From Clostridium beijerinckii (GTDB lineage Bacteria; Bacillota; Clostridia; Clostridiales; Clostridiaceae): DNA of 64,000 nt. Within the stretch, counting starts at the first letter, position 1. Every line of letters begins with the position of its first letter. Location of the stretch: positions 2,681,001-2,745,000 of the forward strand of contig NZ_CP144906.1 in the NCBI RefSeq assembly GCF_036699995.1. The letters are read 5' to 3'. Shown here piece after piece: positions 19,472 to 45,774 of this stretch. The notes beneath the pieces were generated by a model, which searched no databases, was not told the DNA's origin, and saw only the letters and a list, made by a program, of their open reading frames with translations. The position numbers and the translations under genes were made by a program.

Positions 19472-19493
19472 AAGTCAACAGTTCATACAAAAG

Positions 19494-19562
19494 ACTCGTA
19501 TATTTCCGATATTATGGTTGGAAAGTCTCTACCTGCTATCCGTAAATTAGCAGACTACGAGG
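19494..19562 (+). promoter_or_regulatory. Guanine-class purine riboswitch aptamer
   Basis: P1 is formed by CTCGTA (19495-19500) and TACGAG (19556-19561). Conserved junction and loop sequences are present: TATGGTTGG, GTCTCTACC, CCGTAAA and GACTACGA. The base just before the 3' strand of P1 (19555, position 74 in xpt numbering) is C, which pairs with guanine or xanthine; adenine aptamers have U. Ligand binding should favour the downstream terminator and shut off the permease and xpt genes. Confidence 0.95.
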
Positions 19563-19600
19563 TAGTGTTTTAGTGCTAAGTATTATTATATTCGCATATA

Positions 19601-21075: not shown

Positions 21076-21648
21076 ATGGAAAGCTTACATAAAAGAATTT
21101 TAGAAGAAGGACAAGCATTATCAGAAAATGTACTGAAAGTTGATTCGTTTTTAAATCATCAAGTGGATCCGGAATTAATGTACGAAATGGGTACATACTT
21201 TAAAAATTACTTTGAGAATCATAAAATAACAAAGGTGTTTACAATTGAAAGTTCTGGTATAGCACCTGCTGTGATGACTGCAATGCAAATGAATTTGCCT
21301 ATGGTTACTCTAAAAAAGCAAAACTCAAAAATACTGAATGGTGATGTTTATCAAACAACTGTACATTCATTTACTAAAAGCTTAGATTATGAGTTGACAT
21401 TATCTAAAAAATATATAAATGATGAAGATAATATATTAGTTATAGATGATTTTTTAGCAAATGGCGAAGCGGCACTTGGAGCTGCACGTTTGATAGAGGA
21501 AGCTGGAGCAAAAGTTGCTGGAATAGGAATAGTAATAGAAAAGTCATTCCAAAAAGGTGCTCAAATGCTTAAGGATAAAGGATATGATGTATACTCTTTG
21601 GCAAGAATAGCGAAACTATCAAAAGGCATAATAGAATTTGTTAAATAA
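21076..21648 (+). CDS. xpt: Xanthine phosphoribosyltransferase
   Basis: This 190-residue enzyme of the Xpt family converts xanthine and PRPP to XMP in purine salvage. The PRPP-binding loop is [14 protein letters not shown] (about residues 124-137). The N-terminal segment [23 protein letters not shown] and the [14 protein letters not shown] and MVTLKKQN blocks match the family, as does the length. It directly follows the permease gene in a two-gene unit under the guanine riboswitch. This is the classical xpt-pbuX pairing in reversed order. Its 3' end almost touches a palindromic repeat element. Confidence 0.95.
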
Positions 21649-21650
21649 AG

Positions 21651-21992
21651 TATAGATAACCCAACTATAATCTATACTTATGCGTATATCTCACCGAAAT
21701 GAATAATATACTTTTATTCCAGTTTCTAGGTAATTATGATGGGTGATTCTAAGGCTATAAAGTTGTACTCAAAGTGCTAGCCTCAAAGAACAAGCGCTCA
21801 CAGAGAAAGTTCGAAGAACGAAATATAAAATTTCGATTCTCACTTTTTGAACTAGCACATTTGGAACAACTTATAGCCAAAGAATCACATCCATCAAAAT
21901 TACCAATGAAACATTCCACAAAAGTATATTACTCATTTCTAGTTGGAAGATATTTCATAGTTTAAGTATAGTTTATGATTGTGATATCTATA
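21651..21992 (+). repeat. Quasi-palindromic dispersed element, copy 1
   Basis: About 342 bp bounded by TATAGATAACCC and the inverse GATATCTATA. The two halves pair along most of their length. Helices include GATTCT with AGAATC, AAGTTGT with ACAACTT and GTGCTAG with CTAGCAC. The tip carries an extra hairpin (GAACGAAAT.. region, 21810-21840) absent from copy 2. Shared unpaired motifs are ACTTATG, CACCGAAATGA and AATGAAACATT. A 63-codon frame inside is not considered coding. Related copies are at 28274-28619 and, inverted, at 44350-44715. Confidence 0.75.
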
Positions 21993-22067
21993 TTTTCATT
22001 ACAAAGTAAAAATTAAATTATTCTTATTAGCATTTTAAAGAGTGTTTAATAAAGGTCTTATAAATTG

Positions 22068-23870: not shown

Positions 23871-25824
23871 TCTCATATTCCGCCTAACTAATTTTTCCTA
23901 TTTAACCTCAACTATTCACTATATTATTTGACTAAAAATTATTATGATTACGGTATGCAAATAATATTTAATGGGGGGATTGGAATGGATAAAGAGTTGT
24001 TATTGGAAAATATTGAAATGGAAGCATATAGCCATGGAAAAGCGACGCTTGTAGCAGGTATGTGTAAGAAACTAGGAGTTATCAACATCTTTGATCAATA
24101 TTTGACTAAACAAAATGGGAGAAAGCCTGATATAGCTTATGGGATAATGGCTCAAATGATGTTAGCAAATCTTTGTCATTCAAGACGACCATTATATCTT
24201 ATGGATGAGTATTTTGAACATATTGATATTGAAGGGACATTTAACAGCGATGCGAAGCCTCATAATCTTACAGATGATAGATTTGGCTGTTTTCTTGATA
24301 ATTTTCATGAAGCTGGTCCAAGAAAAATTTTTTCTGAAATAAGTATGACTGCTTTCGCTACGTATGGATTGAGTATAAAGAATATTAATTACGATACTAC
24401 CTCAAAGGTAATGTGGGGCCAGTATGAAACAGAAGAAGGTAAAATAGATGAAATATCAATTGATTATGGATATAGTAAAGATAAAAGAAATGATAAGAAA
24501 CAAATAAAAATTGGAATTGGAACAGCTAACGGTATAGTTGTAGACGCAAAAGTTCTTTCGGGTAATACAGATGATAAAACTTATAATAATGACGCTATAG
24601 ATGATGTTGATGAAATTTTAAAAAAATCCAAAACTAGTAAAGATTCATTCTACTATGTTGCAGATAGTGCATTTTTTACAGAAGAAAATATTAATAAAGC
24701 AAATGGTAGAGATATAAAATTTATAACAAGAGCTCCTGAAACAACAAATATGTCTAAAATCTATATTGGTAAATTTTTTAGTGAAAGACAGTTAACAAAA
24801 GATGTTATTTTTGAAAATGCCCAAGGTAAAAAAGTTAAATATCAAGTATTAGATTATAAATCAGAATATAAGGGGATTCCAGTTAAACTGGCAGTCTGTT
24901 ATTCCTTCACTCTTGAAGAAACCAAAAGGAAAACTATTTCTAGGCATGCAGAAAAAGAATATGCCGAATTAGAGAAAAAAATCAAAGTATTTTCCAAGCG
25001 TAGCTTCGCGTGCGAAGCAGATTCACAAAAAGAAATAGAAGAGTTTTTAAAGACTAAAGGGAAAAAATTAAAATACCATTCTGTTAATTTGAATATTGAA
25101 ATGAATGAAAAACGTAAGCGTAAAAAAGCTGATAATAAGGATTCACAAAAGGAATATGAATATACTATTAATTTAGAAATTAACCGTGAAGATTCAAAAA
25201 TTGAAGCAGCAATTGAAAGAGAGTGTACTTTCATCTTAGCAAGTAATGATTCTGATATTTCATGTGAAGAAATGCTGAAAGAATACAAAACTCAAAGCAG
25301 CGTAGAGAAAAAGTTTCAGCAGCTAAAAGCACCAGAGTTTATAGATGACCTTTTTGTAAAAACTCCCAAAAGAGTTGAAGCCTTAACATACATGATACTT
25401 ATTGGTTTAATGATTTTATCAGTAATGGAACATGTAGTCAGACGTGAGATGAAGAAAGATAATACGATTATACTTGGACCTGGAAAAATAAAAATGTCCA
25501 AGCCGAGTTTAAAAGCTATAATGGGTATCTTTGAGTATGTGCCTATACAAGTAATTAAAGTTAATAACAATTGTATAAGAAAGTTTCAAAAACCACTAAA
25601 AGATAATCAACGGCAGATATTGAATTATTTAGGTTTGGATGAAAGTATTTTTGTTGGACATGCTATTTAACAAGTATATATTTCAAAAAATTTAATAATG
25701 ATTCCATTAGGGATAGTTTAGAAATTTACTATGGAATAATTCACATATAGATATATATTATTCCAAACTTTAAATAAAGAAAAGATATTTCACTGAAATG
25801 CATAGCATTCAGCGAAATATGAGA
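23871..25824 (+). mobile_element. IS1634-like insertion sequence
   Basis: The transposase gene is bracketed by imperfect inverted ends. The left end is TCTCATATTCCGC from 23871. The right end, GCGAAATATGAGA, finishes at 25824; its complement TCTCATATTTCGC differs at one position. The element is about 1.95 kb. The right end overlaps a hairpin (ATATTTC..CTGAA with TTCAG..GAAATAT, 25785-25820). No clean target duplication is visible; IS1634 members are known for long and variable ones. Exact ends need comparison with an empty site. Confidence 0.7.
23985..25670 (+). CDS. IS1634-family transposase
   Basis: About 561 residues, a DDE-type transposase of the IS4/IS1634 group that cuts and joins the element ends. 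The N-terminal domain (MEAYSHGKATLVAGMCKKLG) resembles IS1634 proteins. Catalytic-type acidic residues are likely Asp in NINYDTTS, Asp in YYVADSAFF, and Glu in the C-terminal YKTQSSVEKKF motif, the YREK-like signature. A charged helical region (KKRKRKKADNKDSQKEYE, about 385-405) lies within the insert. The frame is intact, so the element may be active. ATG 23985 follows a GGGGGG run; the longer frame start at 23928 lacks a site. No other copy is seen in the window. Confidence 0.88.
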   Translation: MDKELLLENIEMEAYSHGKATLVAGMCKKLGVINIFDQYLTKQNGRKPDIAYGIMAQMMLANLCHSRRPLYLMDEYFEHIDIEGTFNSDAKPHNLTDDRFGCFLDNFHEAGPRKIFSEISMTAFATYGLSIKNINYDTTSKVMWGQYETEEGKIDEISIDYGYSKDKRNDKKQIKIGIGTANGIVVDAKVLSGNTDDKTYNNDAIDDVDEILKKSKTSKDSFYYVADSAFFTEENINKANGRDIKFITRAPETTNMSKIYIGKFFSERQLTKDVIFENAQGKKVKYQVLDYKSEYKGIPVKLAVCYSFTLEETKRKTISRHAEKEYAELEKKIKVFSKRSFACEADSQKEIEEFLKTKGKKLKYHSVNLNIEMNEKRKRKKADNKDSQKEYEYTINLEINREDSKIEAAIERECTFILASNDSDISCEEMLKEYKTQSSVEKKFQQLKAPEFIDDLFVKTPKRVEALTYMILIGLMILSVMEHVVRREMKKDNTIILGPGKIKMSKPSLKAIMGIFEYVPIQVIKVNNNCIRKFQKPLKDNQRQILNYLGLDESIFVGHAI

Positions 25825-26494: not shown

Positions 26495-28252
26495 ATGAAA
26501 AATAATGCAGCACAAAGAGAATTTAAAAAGTATAAGGGTCAGATAAATCAAATAGAAGAAATAGTTGAGCATTCAAAGCCAGGAGCATTATTAGAGCATG
26601 AGAGCTCAATAAGAAAGAAACTTAGACATCTTAAGGAATTAGAAAATCAGAGTTTAAGAGATTTTAATGAGGTTTATGAGAGATATGAAGAGCTATTAGA
26701 AACTGTTTCAAAGAAAATGCTTGACTACTATAATAAAAGTAATAATACAAGTTTTGATTTTTATGAAGTAGTGCGTGGAAATTATAATAGTTTTTTAAAT
26801 CAAGGATTAATGACAATATTAACCAAACAACATATTCCTAAATTAGTTGCAAAAGAATTTGAAGAAAATTTCCCAAGTAATCCTAAAGATGAGTATCGTC
26901 AAGCACGAAGCATGAAAAGAAAGTTCTACATACATTTAGGAGATACAAATACAGGTAAAACGTATAATGCTTTAGAACGTCTTAAAAGTGCAAAAAAAGG
27001 TGTTTATTTATCGCCACTTAGAATTCTAGCCTTAGAAAATTTTGAAAAGTTAAATAGAGAAGGAGTAATTTGTGATCTTTTAACTGGTGAAGAGGAAATA
27101 ATAAATGTGGGATCTACTCACACATCATGTACAATAGAAAAAGTTAATTTAAAAGAACATTATGATATAGCTGTAATTGATGAGATTCAGATGATAAGTG
27201 ATCCTTTTCGTGGAATGGCATGGAGCAAAGCTCTACTAGGGCTCCAATGTGATGAAATACATATATGTGGAGCTGCAAATGCTAAATATATATTAGAAAC
27301 AATTATAAGTGATTGTAAAGATGAATATGAAATAAGAGAATATACAAGAGCTATACCATTAGAAGTTGAATATAAGAATTTTAGTTATAATGATGTTCAG
27401 GAAGGTGATGCTATTGTAGTCTTTTCTAAAAAAAGAGTATTAGAAATAGCAGAGGAATATTCAAGTAGAAACATTAAGGCAAGTATAATTTACGGTGATT
27501 TACCACCTGAAGTTAGGAAAATGCAATACGAACAGTTCATTAATAAAGAAACAAAAATTCTTGTGACTACTGATGCGATAGGGATGGGAGTTAATTTGCC
27601 TATCAGAAGAATTATATTTATGAGTATAAGGAAATTTGATGGAGAAGAAGTAAGAGAGTTAACTTCGCAGGAAATAAAACAAGTAGGAGGGCGTGCTGGT
27701 AGACTTGGTATTTATGATGTTGGTTATATTGCCAGTGTTGGCGGCAATGCAGATATAATTAAATCTAAATTAGAAACAGAAGACGAGGTTATAAAACAAG
27801 CTGTTATAGGGCCATCAGAAGCAATACTTAAGATTAGAAGTCTGCCTTTAAATGAAAAATTAGCTCTTTGGAGCACAAGAACAGAAAAATTAGATTATTA
27901 TACTAAGATGGATGTAAGTGAATATATTTTGATCTTGGATAGACTAAGGAAATACAAGCTTAATGAGGAAATTCAATGGGATTTATTGAAAGTTCCATTT
28001 GATGTGTCTAGAGATGAACTTATGGATGCATTTTTAAATTATGTAGATGAACTATTTGTGAATAAACAGAAAGAGTTATTTAAACCCCAAAACTTTAATG
28101 GTGGTTTGGATGATTTAGAAATTTATTATCAGAAGATAAATATGTATTACTCATTTTCTAAAATATTTAATTTAAAACTAGACGTTCAATGGGTTTATGA
28201 TGAAAGATTAAAAGTAAGTGAAGAAATAAATGATATATTATTAAGACTTTAA
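26495..28252 (+). CDS. SUV3-like superfamily 2 RNA helicase
   Basis: This 585-residue protein has an N-terminal helical, charged region (1-140) and then a helicase core. Walker A is GDTNTGKT at residues 149-156 and motif II is DEIQM at 229-233. Motif Ia is YLSPLRILALE, motif III-like is HICGAAN, and the C-terminal RecA motifs are TDAIGMGVNLP and QVGGRAGRLG. The DEIQ box, the HTSCTIEK segment and the GRAGR motif resemble SUV3/SUPV3L1-type helicases better than DEAD-box proteins. In mitochondria SUV3 unwinds RNA for degradation by the degradosome; a role in RNA turnover is inferred here. The C-terminal 100 residues are helical. The gene ends next to repeat copy 2. Confidence 0.85.
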   Translation: MKNNAAQREFKKYKGQINQIEEIVEHSKPGALLEHESSIRKKLRHLKELENQSLRDFNEVYERYEELLETVSKKMLDYYNKSNNTSFDFYEVVRGNYNSFLNQGLMTILTKQHIPKLVAKEFEENFPSNPKDEYRQARSMKRKFYIHLGDTNTGKTYNALERLKSAKKGVYLSPLRILALENFEKLNREGVICDLLTGEEEIINVGSTHTSCTIEKVNLKEHYDIAVIDEIQMISDPFRGMAWSKALLGLQCDEIHICGAANAKYILETIISDCKDEYEIREYTRAIPLEVEYKNFSYNDVQEGDAIVVFSKKRVLEIAEEYSSRNIKASIIYGDLPPEVRKMQYEQFINKETKILVTTDAIGMGVNLPIRRIIFMSIRKFDGEEVRELTSQEIKQVGGRAGRLGIYDVGYIASVGGNADIIKSKLETEDEVIKQAVIGPSEAILKIRSLPLNEKLALWSTRTEKLDYYTKMDVSEYILILDRLRKYKLNEEIQWDLLKVPFDVSRDELMDAFLNYVDELFVNKQKELFKPQNFNGGLDDLEIYYQKINMYYSFSKIFNLKLDVQWVYDERLKVSEEINDILLRL

Positions 28253-28273: not shown

Positions 28274-28619
28274 TAATAGGTAATAATAAATTAAGTATTA
28301 TATAGATAAACCAACTAAGACCTAGACTTATGCATATATCTCGCCGAAATGAGAATTATGCTGTTGTTCCAGTTTCTAAGGAAATTATGATGGATGATTC
28401 TAAGCTCACAAGTTGCACCCAAGATGCTAGCCTCAAAGGCAAGCTTTGAACTAGCATACTTGGAACAACTTTTAATCTAAGAATCAAAGCCATCAAATTC
28501 CTAATGAAACATTTCACAAAAGCATAATTCTTATTTCTAGTTGGGATATATTTCATAGTATAAATCTAACTTAAAGTTGGGTTATCTATAAGCTTACTTA
28601 AATTTGTTATTACCTATTA
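28274..28619 (+). repeat. Quasi-palindromic dispersed element, copy 2
   Basis: About 346 bp. Outer arms TAATAGGTAATAA and TTATTACCTATTA pair, then TATAGATAAACCAACT with AGTTGGGTTATCTATA, and further in GATTCT with AGAATC, AAGTTG with CAACTT and ATGCTAG with CTAGCAT. The tip is a short loop around CCTCAAAGGCAAGC. Motif order matches copy 1: CTAGACTTATG, CGCCGAAATGAG, TTCTAAG, TTGGAACAACTT, AATGAAACATT, TTATTTCTAGTTGG. A 66-codon frame on the minus strand is a by-product of the palindrome. Confidence 0.78.
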
Positions 28620-37411: not shown

Positions 37412-38449
37412 ATGTCTATTTATTTTGATTTAAAAACTATTAATGAACTTACAGGAAGCAATTCGTATAGGCAGCCTAAAGAACTTACATTAGATGATTT
37501 ATCACAATATGATGGAAGAGGAGGAAAACCTGCGTATGTAGCTATAGAAGGTGTCGTTTATGATGTAAGCAATGAATCAAATTGGAGCGGAGGGACACAC
37601 TATGGTCTTAATGCAGGTCAAGATTTAACAGACCAATTTAATTCTTGTCATGGAATGATGCAAATTCTTAATAATGCACCTAAAGTTGGCATATTAGTAG
37701 ATGATAATAACATGAGTAACATGAATTTTGATATCAATGAAAATATGAAGAGGCAAGTTAAGCAAAATACATCGAATTTTAGACCAGATGATTGGATTAG
37801 ATATGTTGAGCCAATAGTGAGTTATTCTTTGAGTGACAATAATCAGGGAACTGGATTGCAAGGTGCTGGAGCACGACGCTCATATCAAAAAGCTATTTTA
37901 CTAGGAGTGCTTGTTGGCTTAGGAAGAACTCCTCAGGAAGCAATTACACAAGTTCAACAGTGGCAGAATACAGGAGCAACTACTTTATTAGGAGGACCAA
38001 GTACCGGAGGAACAACAAGCGGTGGCACAGGAACTGGAGGAACAACAGGCGGTGGCATGGGAACTGGAGGAACAACAGGCGGTGGCATGGGAACTGGAGG
38101 AACAACAGGCGGTGGCATGGGAACCGGAGGAACAACAGGCGGTGGCATGGGAACTGGAGGAACAACAGGCGGCGGCATGGGAACTGGAGGAACAACAGGC
38201 GGCGGCATGGGAACTGGAGGAACAACAGGCGGCGGCATGGGAACTGGAGGAACAACAGGCGGCGGCATGGGAACTGGAGGAACAACAGGCGGCGGCATCG
38301 GAACTGGAGGAACAACAGGCGGTGGCATGGGAACTGGAGGAACAACAGGCGGTGGCATGGGAACCGGAGGAACAACAGGCGGTGGCGCAGGAACTGGAGG
38401 CACCACTAGAGGTGAATCAATAGTAAGAAATAGACTTTTTTTTGATTAG
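37412..38449 (+). CDS. Cytochrome b5-like domain protein with Gly/Thr decapeptide repeats
   Basis: This 345-residue protein starts with a cytochrome-b5-like heme/steroid-binding domain (about 22-100: KELTLDDLSQYDGR, PAYVAIEGVVYDVSN, HYGLNAGQDLTDQF). The usual axial His positions are not obvious; the region HYGLNAG holds the only likely one. A helical middle part (about 120-185) follows, then 12 uninterrupted copies of the decapeptide GTGGTTGGG(M/I/A), flanked by two worn copies. The protein ends with a short charged tail. There is no signal peptide, so the repeat is cytoplasmic unless an unusual route is used. Proteins with this N-terminal domain occur singly in clostridia; function is unknown. 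The repeat DNA is much richer in GC than the surroundings. Confidence 0.8.
   Translation: MSIYFDLKTINELTGSNSYRQPKELTLDDLSQYDGRGGKPAYVAIEGVVYDVSNESNWSGGTHYGLNAGQDLTDQFNSCHGMMQILNNAPKVGILVDDNNMSNMNFDINENMKRQVKQNTSNFRPDDWIRYVEPIVSYSLSDNNQGTGLQGAGARRSYQKAILLGVLVGLGRTPQEAITQVQQWQNTGATTLLGGPSTGGTTSGGTGTGGTTGGGMGTGGTTGGGMGTGGTTGGGMGTGGTTGGGMGTGGTTGGGMGTGGTTGGGMGTGGTTGGGMGTGGTTGGGMGTGGTTGGGIGTGGTTGGGMGTGGTTGGGMGTGGTTGGGAGTGGTTRGESIVRNRLFFD
37996..38405 (+). repeat. 30-bp in-frame tandem repeat
   Basis: Twelve perfect-length 30-bp units fill 38041-38400, with degenerate units on both sides. One unit counts 18 G/C of 30. Units 5-9 use GGC and the outer units GGT at one Gly codon, and an ACC variant occurs in unit 4 and again near the end, a pattern of block duplication. 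The array leaves all three forward and at least two reverse frames open, which creates false long frames here. Confidence 0.95.
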
Positions 38450-44349: not shown

Positions 44350-44715
44350 TTACGTAAATTTAAGTTATATATTGTTTATAAATAGATAAACAATTTAAGA
44401 ATTAGACTTATTAGATGAACATATTTACAAAGTTGCTAAAACTTTAAGCTCATATCTTCACAAGAAATCATAAATATATTTGTGAAGAAAACATTTGAAA
44501 ATGAGCTGTTAAAGGTTCTTAGCTGTAGGTTGTTCCATTTTAGCTTGTCAAACTGAAAGTTGGAGCATGCTAAAGTGGATACAACCTGCTGCTTAGAACC
44601 TTCAGCGATATTTTCATAGCTTTTCGGAATCAAAATATTTATGATTTCGGTAAGTTATCACATAAGTCTAGTTTTAAAGTTGGACATCTATATTATGTAT
44701 AAACTTATTTACAGT
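44350..44715 (-). repeat. Quasi-palindromic dispersed element, copy 3 (inverted)
   Basis: About 366 bp, recognised on the minus strand by the motif order of copies 1 and 2: CTAGACTTATG, TACCGAAAT, GGTTCTAAG, TGGAACAACCT, CTAAGAACC, TTCACAAA. Outer arms also pair (GTAAAT/ATTTAC and ATAGAT/ATCTAT zones). The inner helices are GGTTCT/AGAACC and AGGTTGT/ACAACCT, where copies 1 and 2 have GATTCT/AGAATC and AGTTG/CAACT, so both partners changed together. It fills most of the leader of argF. Confidence 0.72.
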
Positions 44716-44778
44716 ATATATACTAAATAAAATAGATTTTTTATTTATAAAAATATTATAAATAGAAGGAGAATGAGC

Positions 44779-45774
44779 ATGGCAGTAAATTTAAGGGGAA
44801 GAAGTTTTTTGAAGTTATTGGATTTTAAACCAGAAGAGATTAGATATTTATTAGATTTGTCTAAGGAATTAAAAATGTTAAAAAGAACTGGAATTTTACA
44901 TGATAAGTTGAAAGGTAAGAACATAGTACTATTATTTGAGAAGACATCTACAAGAACAAGATGTTCATTTGAAGTGGCTGGAAGAGATTTAGGGATGGGG
45001 GTTACATACCTAGATTCAGCAGGATCTCAAATGGGGAAAAAAGAAAGTATTGCAGATACAGCAAGAGTTCTTGGGAGAATGTATGATGGAATAGAGTATA
45101 GAGGTTTTAGTCAGGAAATAGTTGAAGAATTGGCTAAGTATGCAGGAGTTCCAGTATGGAATGGATTAACTGATGAATTTCATCCAACTCAAATGATTGC
45201 AGACCTTCTAACAATAGAAGAAAAACTTGGAAGATTAAAAGGCGTTAATTTTGTATATATGGGTGATGCAAGAAATAATATGGGAAACTCTCTCATGGTA
45301 GCTTGTGCAAAGATGGGCTTAAATTTCACTGCTTGTGCACCTAAAGAGTTATTTCCATCAGAAAAGTTAGTGGAAAAATGCAAGGAAATAGCTCAGGAAG
45401 TTGGAGGTACGATAACTTTAACAGAAGATGTTAATAAAGGAACTAAAAATGCAGATGTGATCTATACTGATGTATGGGTATCAATGGGTGAACCAGATGA
45501 AGTTTGGGAGAGCAGACTAAAATTGTTGAGCCCATATCAAGTAAACAAAGATGTTATGAATAATGCAAATGAAAACGCAATATTTATGCATTGTTTACCA
45601 GCTTACCATGATCTAAAAACTAAGGTAGGAAAAGATGTAGGAGAAAAATTTGGCATGACTGCATTGGAAGTTACTGATGAAGTATTCGAAGGAAAACAAT
45701 CTGTGGTATTTGACGAAGCAGAAAATAGAATGCATTCTATAAAAGCGATAATGTTAGCAACAATTGGTGCATAA
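44779..45774 (+). CDS. argF: Ornithine carbamoyltransferase
   Basis: This 331-residue enzyme makes citrulline from ornithine and carbamoyl phosphate. The carbamoyl-phosphate motif is [14 protein letters not shown] (STRTR near residues 53-57), with [12 protein letters not shown], the ornithine-side region [15 protein letters not shown] ([13 protein letters not shown]) and [10 protein letters not shown], whose Cys is catalytic-region. Length is standard. ATG 44779 is chosen over ATG 44773 because AGGAG lies 7 bp upstream. No other arg or arc gene adjoins. ARG-box-like sites at the predicted promoter favour the anabolic role. Confidence 0.95.

Follow-up and report, generated by a model that had tools for sequence, protein, structure and literature searches.

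The long palindromic repeats in a 64,000-nucleotide stretch of Clostridium beijerinckii DNA (the window) are almost certainly MITEs of the IS630/Tc1-mariner type. This identification is based on their shared terminal repeats, on the duplication of a TA at an empty site, on an IS with matching ends in a relative, and on the spread of the family across a clade of one genus. The original prediction had proposed either selection on RNA structure or a hairpin-type mobile element, and it is the latter that was found, namely a MITE of the IS630 type that duplicates its TA target. We regard it as an evenly balanced possibility that, in addition, the core of the MITE has been kept for a role in the sense orientation at the 3' end of messages. 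Among the open-access papers listed, none had a title or abstract opening that described a Clostridium MITE of such kind.

The family, its target sites and a related IS

Each of the three window copies (Table 1), when used as query, recovered dozens of relatives in the own genome of 5.55 Mb. What had been described as a three-member family thereby grew to 85 copies reaching both model ends (within 15 positions), a number that refers to the regions examined, with 40 candidates scored per genome search. Terminal octamers with at most one mismatch are present at both ends of 70 of the 85, at one end of 12 and at neither end of 3, and chained matches in the examined regions yielded 150 elements or fragments. 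Window copies 1 and 2 belong to an A type, usually 291-292 bp long, and copy 3 to a B type, usually 310-314 bp; longer length classes lie near 342, at 380-392 and at 411-413 bp, and a few copies were chained across inserts (448-759 bp). The core of each full-length copy is an imperfect inverted repeat of ~200 bp, most of which is missing from 12 short forms of 97-180 bp in the own genome. Two adjacent identical B copies, 542 bp apart and with the same flanks (L043:2236-3605), arose by tandem duplication and not by separate insertion. Elements with B bodies and A-like left ends occur at own-genome positions 3633774, 3437428 and 3571666, suggesting recombination between subfamilies.

Table 1. 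Positions in the window of the three copies, their parts and the adjoining genes
Feature	Position	Strand	Remarks
Copy 1, A type	21651..21992	+	342 bp including both TA; 2 bp past the xanthine phosphoribosyltransferase stop codon, sense
Apical hairpin module in copy 1	21794..21846	+	Explains 342 vs 291 bp; 21805-21846 recurs at 0-1 mismatch in further copies and species
Copy 2, A type	28301..28590	+	TIR positions; 48 bp past the stop of a 585-aa helicase-like ORF, sense
Conserved core of copy 2	28344..28542	+	Query 71-269; the part that several relatives match, as do copies whose ends have decayed
Host palindrome, left arm	28274..28299		Outside the element; recognisable at the HUN142 empty site
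Host palindrome, right arm	28592..28619		Outside the element; recognisable at the HUN142 empty site
Copy 3, B type	44381..44692	-	Upstream of the ornithine carbamoyltransferase gene and opposed to it; left end 81 bp from the gene start
Xanthine phosphoribosyltransferase gene, upstream of copy 1	21076..21648	+	NCBIfam TIGR01744, over cut-off
ORF with helicase C-terminal similarity, upstream of copy 2	26495..28252	+	NCBIfam matches all below cut-offs
Ornithine carbamoyltransferase gene, adjoining copy 3	44773..45774	+	NCBIfam TIGR00658, over cut-off

A search of Clostridium genomes for further copies was also positive: of the 68 genomes of the genus (own genome counted), 21 match copy 2 at E<=0.001 and 16 at E<=1e-10. 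No match came from the 15 genomes that represent other families of the order, nor from the plasmid and phage collections searched with copy 2. The three window copies contain no ORF of at least 80 aa and have no transposase of their own.

The ends of the element are sharp, with TATAGATA on the left and TATCTATA on the right. In C. beijerinckii HUN142 the syntenic region lacks all three window copies, with a neighbouring protein that is 99% identical. The site of copy 1 reads AAAG-TA-TTTA when empty in HUN142 and AAAG-TA-[TAGATA...TATCTA]-TA-TTTT when filled; a TA is duplicated at this insertion. Comparison of copy 2 with its empty site agrees with TA duplication, one TA being ambiguous, and at the site of copy 3 the matching flanks are separated by 67 bp in HUN142 as against 342 bp in the window (L384). 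Abutting elements are joined as TATCTATATAGATA, the junction expected if one element inserted into the terminal TA of its neighbour. Of the limits first drawn for the copies, those of copy 1 stood, and those of copies 2 and 3 have been replaced by the ones in Table 1. The two stretches that had been taken for the outer arms of copy 2 belong to a host palindrome, seen at the empty site in HUN142. A preference for hairpin targets was rejected as a rule (85 joined sites vs 972 control TA sites, p=0.15); copy 2 nevertheless inserted into a palindrome.

Several further features came to light in these comparisons. In genome G040, the place of window copy 3 (L383:2816-3134) appears to hold the B element in the opposite orientation together with further repeat sequence. 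Similar sequence around GGTTCC-CAAT-AGAGT-GAACT lies beside elements, in the right flanks of the own-genome copies at 3440673 and 3457756 and in L317, and looks like another repeat family. The stretch of the window that carries an IS1634-family transposase ORF (23928-25670) has no counterpart in HUN142, and the alignment to HUN142 has a 30-bp step at 37412-38449, where the coding sequence is internally repetitive and overlapping ORFs occupy several frames.

A search with PF13358 across 67 genomes of the genus gave 29 matches in 14 genomes. One of them lies in an IS630-family IS of genome G040 (L221:859-2060, 1202 bp). This IS has ends that match the repeats, its last 36 bp being 92% identical to the right end of copy 3, and repeat copies adjoin it on both sides. 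Its transposase is encoded by two overlapping ORFs beside a run of A, with HTH_33/HTH_29 domains in ORF A and DDE_3 in ORF B, and a frameshift may unite the two. Genome G041 has three partial copies of this IS at contig ends (about 80% identity at the amino acid level), and more diverged matches (46-67%) occur in G052, G053 and G043. Close matches were found only in G040 and G041, and several repeat-bearing genomes have no match. No IS630 element beyond a diverged remnant (5539815-5540241) was found in the own genome; this remnant was rejected as the partner, with about 30% amino acid identity, no matching pair of terminal repeats and no DNA match to the G040 IS. The copies were probably mobilised in trans by an IS of the G040 type, since lost from the own genome.

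Covariation between the arms

As predicted, the three copies are present and strongly folded, with z-scores against dinucleotide shuffles of -14.9 (28274-28619), -14.3 (21640-22000) and -9.9 (44350-44715, minus strand), and none of the 100 shuffles of each copy folded as well. The helix exchanges that had been quoted between copies were likewise found in the sequence. What had been said of the motifs had to be revised: TTATTTCT, thought to be constant in all copies, is exact in copy 2 only, the common part being ATTTCT, and the motifs described as unpaired are mostly paired in the consensus fold, where GAAAT pairs with ATTTC and just the central AA of TGGAACAAC is unpaired. The view that the repeat is not a known RNA class was borne out, in that a scan of the window at Rfam gathering scores gave nothing at the copies; a permissive scan of L001, L002 and L006 likewise gave nothing at the element, its two weak hits having E values of 0.11 and 0.81. 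Around copy 2 there is one promoter-like match, against a shuffle average of 3.5, and no terminator was found. Elsewhere, the window contains a T-box leader (2726-2989) and a purine riboswitch (19476-19577), the latter upstream of two genes that come before copy 1, those for the xanthine permease and the phosphoribosyltransferase.

Covariation is strong when more sequences are used, as had been anticipated. In an alignment of 40 copies, hand-picked from the 54 near-full A-type copies listed and forming 39 distinct rows, 96.3% of cells pair and double changes are seen in 30 of 59 pairs. Double changes account for 259 cells of the alignment (75.5 when shuffled, 13-41 when the structure is slid) and one-sided changes for 39; none of 500 shuffles reached any of five covariation measures, and the predicted structure is favoured over the slid versions because it came from the same 40 copies. 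Pairs with at least two Watson-Crick types in at least three copies each number 52 of 111 in the A type (102 copies) and 28 of 121 in the B type (60 copies).

Selection on the fold of a transcript is expected to leave more G-U than A-C on the strand concerned, and in a DNA palindrome free of such selection the two should be alike. On the element strand of 162 copies there are 480 G-U and 603 A-C cells, and on the presumed transcript, for the 97 copies whose upstream gene is clear, 328 and 346 (p=0.51), the cells being mutually dependent. Because G-U fails to exceed A-C on the element strand, we see no sign of selection on its fold there, and the proposed selection on RNA structure is unsupported by this strand-specific test. 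In the own genome the ratio of G-U to A-C is 28:53 in the A type (16 copies) and 59:68 in the B type (22 copies). Among 160 non-duplicate copies the outer arms hold 220 G-U and 192 A-C cells, and the core 254 and 408. By column, A-C is the higher and G-U the lower in 41 cases, with 40 the other way, in the A type; the corresponding numbers are 45:33 in the B type and 29:14 in B cores. With its A-C excess, the core departs from the symmetry that a pure DNA process would produce; a folded complementary strand would be compatible with such an excess.

The two arms vary in concert, and one-sided intermediates are few; this suggests that the arms are coupled at the level of DNA, either by hairpin-templated correction or by conversion between arms or between copies. 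The comparison of G-U with A-C also carries a caution for covariation searches: strong covariation can arise in a palindromic DNA element that lacks the wobble signature expected of transcript selection.

Orientation and persistence behind genes

The copies are strongly polar with respect to genes: most of them lie shortly after a stop codon, the left end turned towards the gene. With ORFs called mechanically (at least 80 aa by default), the median distance to the nearest ORF in the 85 own copies is 51 bp from the left end and 338 bp from the right end (Wilcoxon p=3.6e-6), and the left end is the closer one in 62 of them. The same was seen for isolated copies and ORFs of at least 150 aa (35 of 51, p=0.0013). 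A gene 3' end lies within 30 bp of the left end in 26 of the 85 and of the right end in 2. In the relatives, where copies were located by similarity to copy 2 and not by place, these numbers are 49 and 1 of 74 (48 and 1 of 73 after de-duplication), or 37 and 1 of 60 when the loci of two orthologous sites are left out. Just behind a gene, the 97 copies from all genomes comprise 90 in sense and 7 in antisense orientation, and within 150 bp behind a gene in the own genome there are 46 and 9. Near gene starts (within 150 bp) most copies have the opposite orientation (19 vs 7), meaning that here again it is the left end that points to the nearby gene, as in window copy 3. Replication orientation was rejected as the cause of this polarity, with 48 leading and 40 lagging copies if the terminus is assumed to lie mid-chromosome. 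So strong an orientation rule behind gene 3' ends speaks for a directional effect of some kind exerted by the core.

The core-deleted short forms bear on the same point. Their left end is closer to an ORF in 2 of 12 cases, compared with 56 of 69 full-length copies (Fisher p=2.8e-5). The difference is similar for isolated copies (1 of 6 vs 34 of 45, p=0.009) and for ORFs of at least 120 aa (3 of 12 vs 54 of 69, p=0.0006); it is smaller when both restrictions are applied (2 of 6 vs 33 of 45, p=0.07) and when left ends within 60 bp of a 3' end are counted (3 of 12 vs 31 of 69, p=0.23). The 12 short forms keep the ends and not the polarity, and so the rule would appear to require the core.

Some copies persist at orthologous gene ends. 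Behind an aminotransferase gene, whose best NCBIfam matches are to aspartate aminotransferase and below cut-offs, a sense element begins no more than about 20 bp from the stop codon in 10 genomes (G000, G040, G076, G057, G047, G043, G069, G042, G022 and G052). Of the remaining loci among the 30 examined at this site, that of G041 has a weak partial match, those of G051 and G059 have remnants recognised by eye only, and 17 have no element. A second such site, again with 30 loci examined, lies behind an ABC-transporter ATP-binding gene in G000, G040, G042 and G082, with a weaker element in G043 and a short and partial one in G076. Elements of the same type in orthologous pairs are 0.59-0.81 identical, apart from the G000-G040 pair, which is nearly identical throughout. 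The flanking 200 nt on the right are near the shuffled level except in G042-G022 (0.79) and G069-G022 (0.67), both with partial coverage. A- and B-type cores both occur at the aminotransferase site, which makes conversion between copies likely and thus weakens the argument for selection. In L082 and L086, an eroded core lies directly behind each of two paralogous fructose-6-phosphate aldolase genes (TIGR00875).

Readings of the core and its apical modules

That the family is nothing but a parasitic IS630 MITE, with a functionless core and a placement set by least harm or by a mechanical preference, is in our view rather unlikely. Such a parasite would have the ends, the TA duplication and the relative with a matching IS, it would fit that none of the 85 copies lies inside an ORF, and an insertion preference could give the polarity, which copies whose two ends are both intact already display (22:1 of 49, counted within 60 bp). 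However, the ends are near-symmetric and the polarity nevertheless strong, core-deleted forms that have these ends lack it, and copies persist at orthologous places, some of them with decayed ends. We consider it improbable that a structured RNA (a 3' element or a small RNA, on either strand) was captured by IS630 ends and that its fold is selected. Neither the element strand nor the presumed transcript has the excess of G-U over A-C, double changes outnumber one-sided ones in a manner unlike stepwise compensation in RNA, and Rfam has no match at the copies. In its favour stand the strong covariation, the motifs that are invariant across the 40 aligned copies, the sense placement behind genes, and the A-C excess of the core, which on the complementary strand becomes one of G-U over A-C. 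A hairpin element of the bcr1 or REP kind, moved by a different mechanism, would share the hairpin, the many copies and the intergenic location, but the clear terminal repeats, the TA duplication and the IS630-family IS with matching ends make it highly improbable.

The composite reading, an IS630/Tc1-mariner MITE with a core kept for a 3'-end role in the sense orientation, is given no more than its even balance because it joins the secure identity of the MITE to an inferred function, and because of the A-C excess in the core. According to this reading, an IS630-type IS would have moved the elements in trans and later been lost from the own genome, and a DNA-level process would hold the arms of the ~200-bp core complementary. 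The core would be transcribed as a 3' UTR, where the sense form may be harmless or useful, by forming or protecting the message end, and the antisense form harmful; wrongly placed copies would then be lost, and some sense copies retained after mobility ends. A directional 3'-end role of the core is what the placement of the copies leads us to infer. Only tentatively do we advance a picture in which a directional 3'-UTR module with IS630 ends was dispersed by transposition and kept mainly in sense behind stop codons, remaining at orthologous genes once it could no longer move, its arms complementary through a DNA-level process and not through selection on the fold of its transcript, and its hairpin growing at the apex. 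Should the core indeed influence the ends of messages, a single mobile element would have given dozens of unrelated genes in each of several species a common 3' module, and its hairpins would constitute a natural experiment on what such structures behind stop codons do to bacterial mRNA.

Small intergenic elements with some of these properties have been described in other bacteria. By mechanism the closest is the RUP element of pneumococcus, reported as 107 bp long, intergenic, and present in about 100 copies with terminal repeats like those of IS630-Spn1 and TA targets (PMC2229807, PMC3049150). Compared by these descriptions, the Clostridium family differs from the streptococcal RUP in size (about 290-410 bp), in its host range within one genus of Clostridia, in its apical modules, and in being strongly polar behind stop codons. 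ERIC/IRU of enterobacteria is likewise a small element (127 bp) with terminal repeats and TA at the termini; its effect on mRNA is reported to depend on orientation, and in Yersinia there is in vivo evidence that the upstream message is destabilised (PMC2229807). As described there, these mRNA effects offer a precedent for an orientation-dependent 3' role, the orientation in the Clostridium family being known from placement alone. The Correia/NEMIS elements of Neisseria (107 and 155 bp) are similar by description in their terminal repeats and hairpin, and RNase III cleavage of their transcripts has been proposed (PMC2229807). The bcr1 family of the Bacillus cereus group, by its description in one survey (167 bp, 31 copies in B. 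anthracis; PMC2267715), resembles ours as an interspersed stem-loop family.

Growth of the family's hairpins seems to take place at the apex, where small hairpin modules are inserted. The apical module of ~50 bp, present in many elements, has no exact match in either viral contigs or plasmids. It is found in window copy 1 and in L032, L036, L037, L054, L075, L331, L332, L336 and L340. From species to species the module differs by 0-1 mismatch, the elements that carry it being only about 60-75% alike. In the own-genome copy at 1231826 (L025) a second module is nested in the first, and in L340 (G082) the module occurs in a different context.
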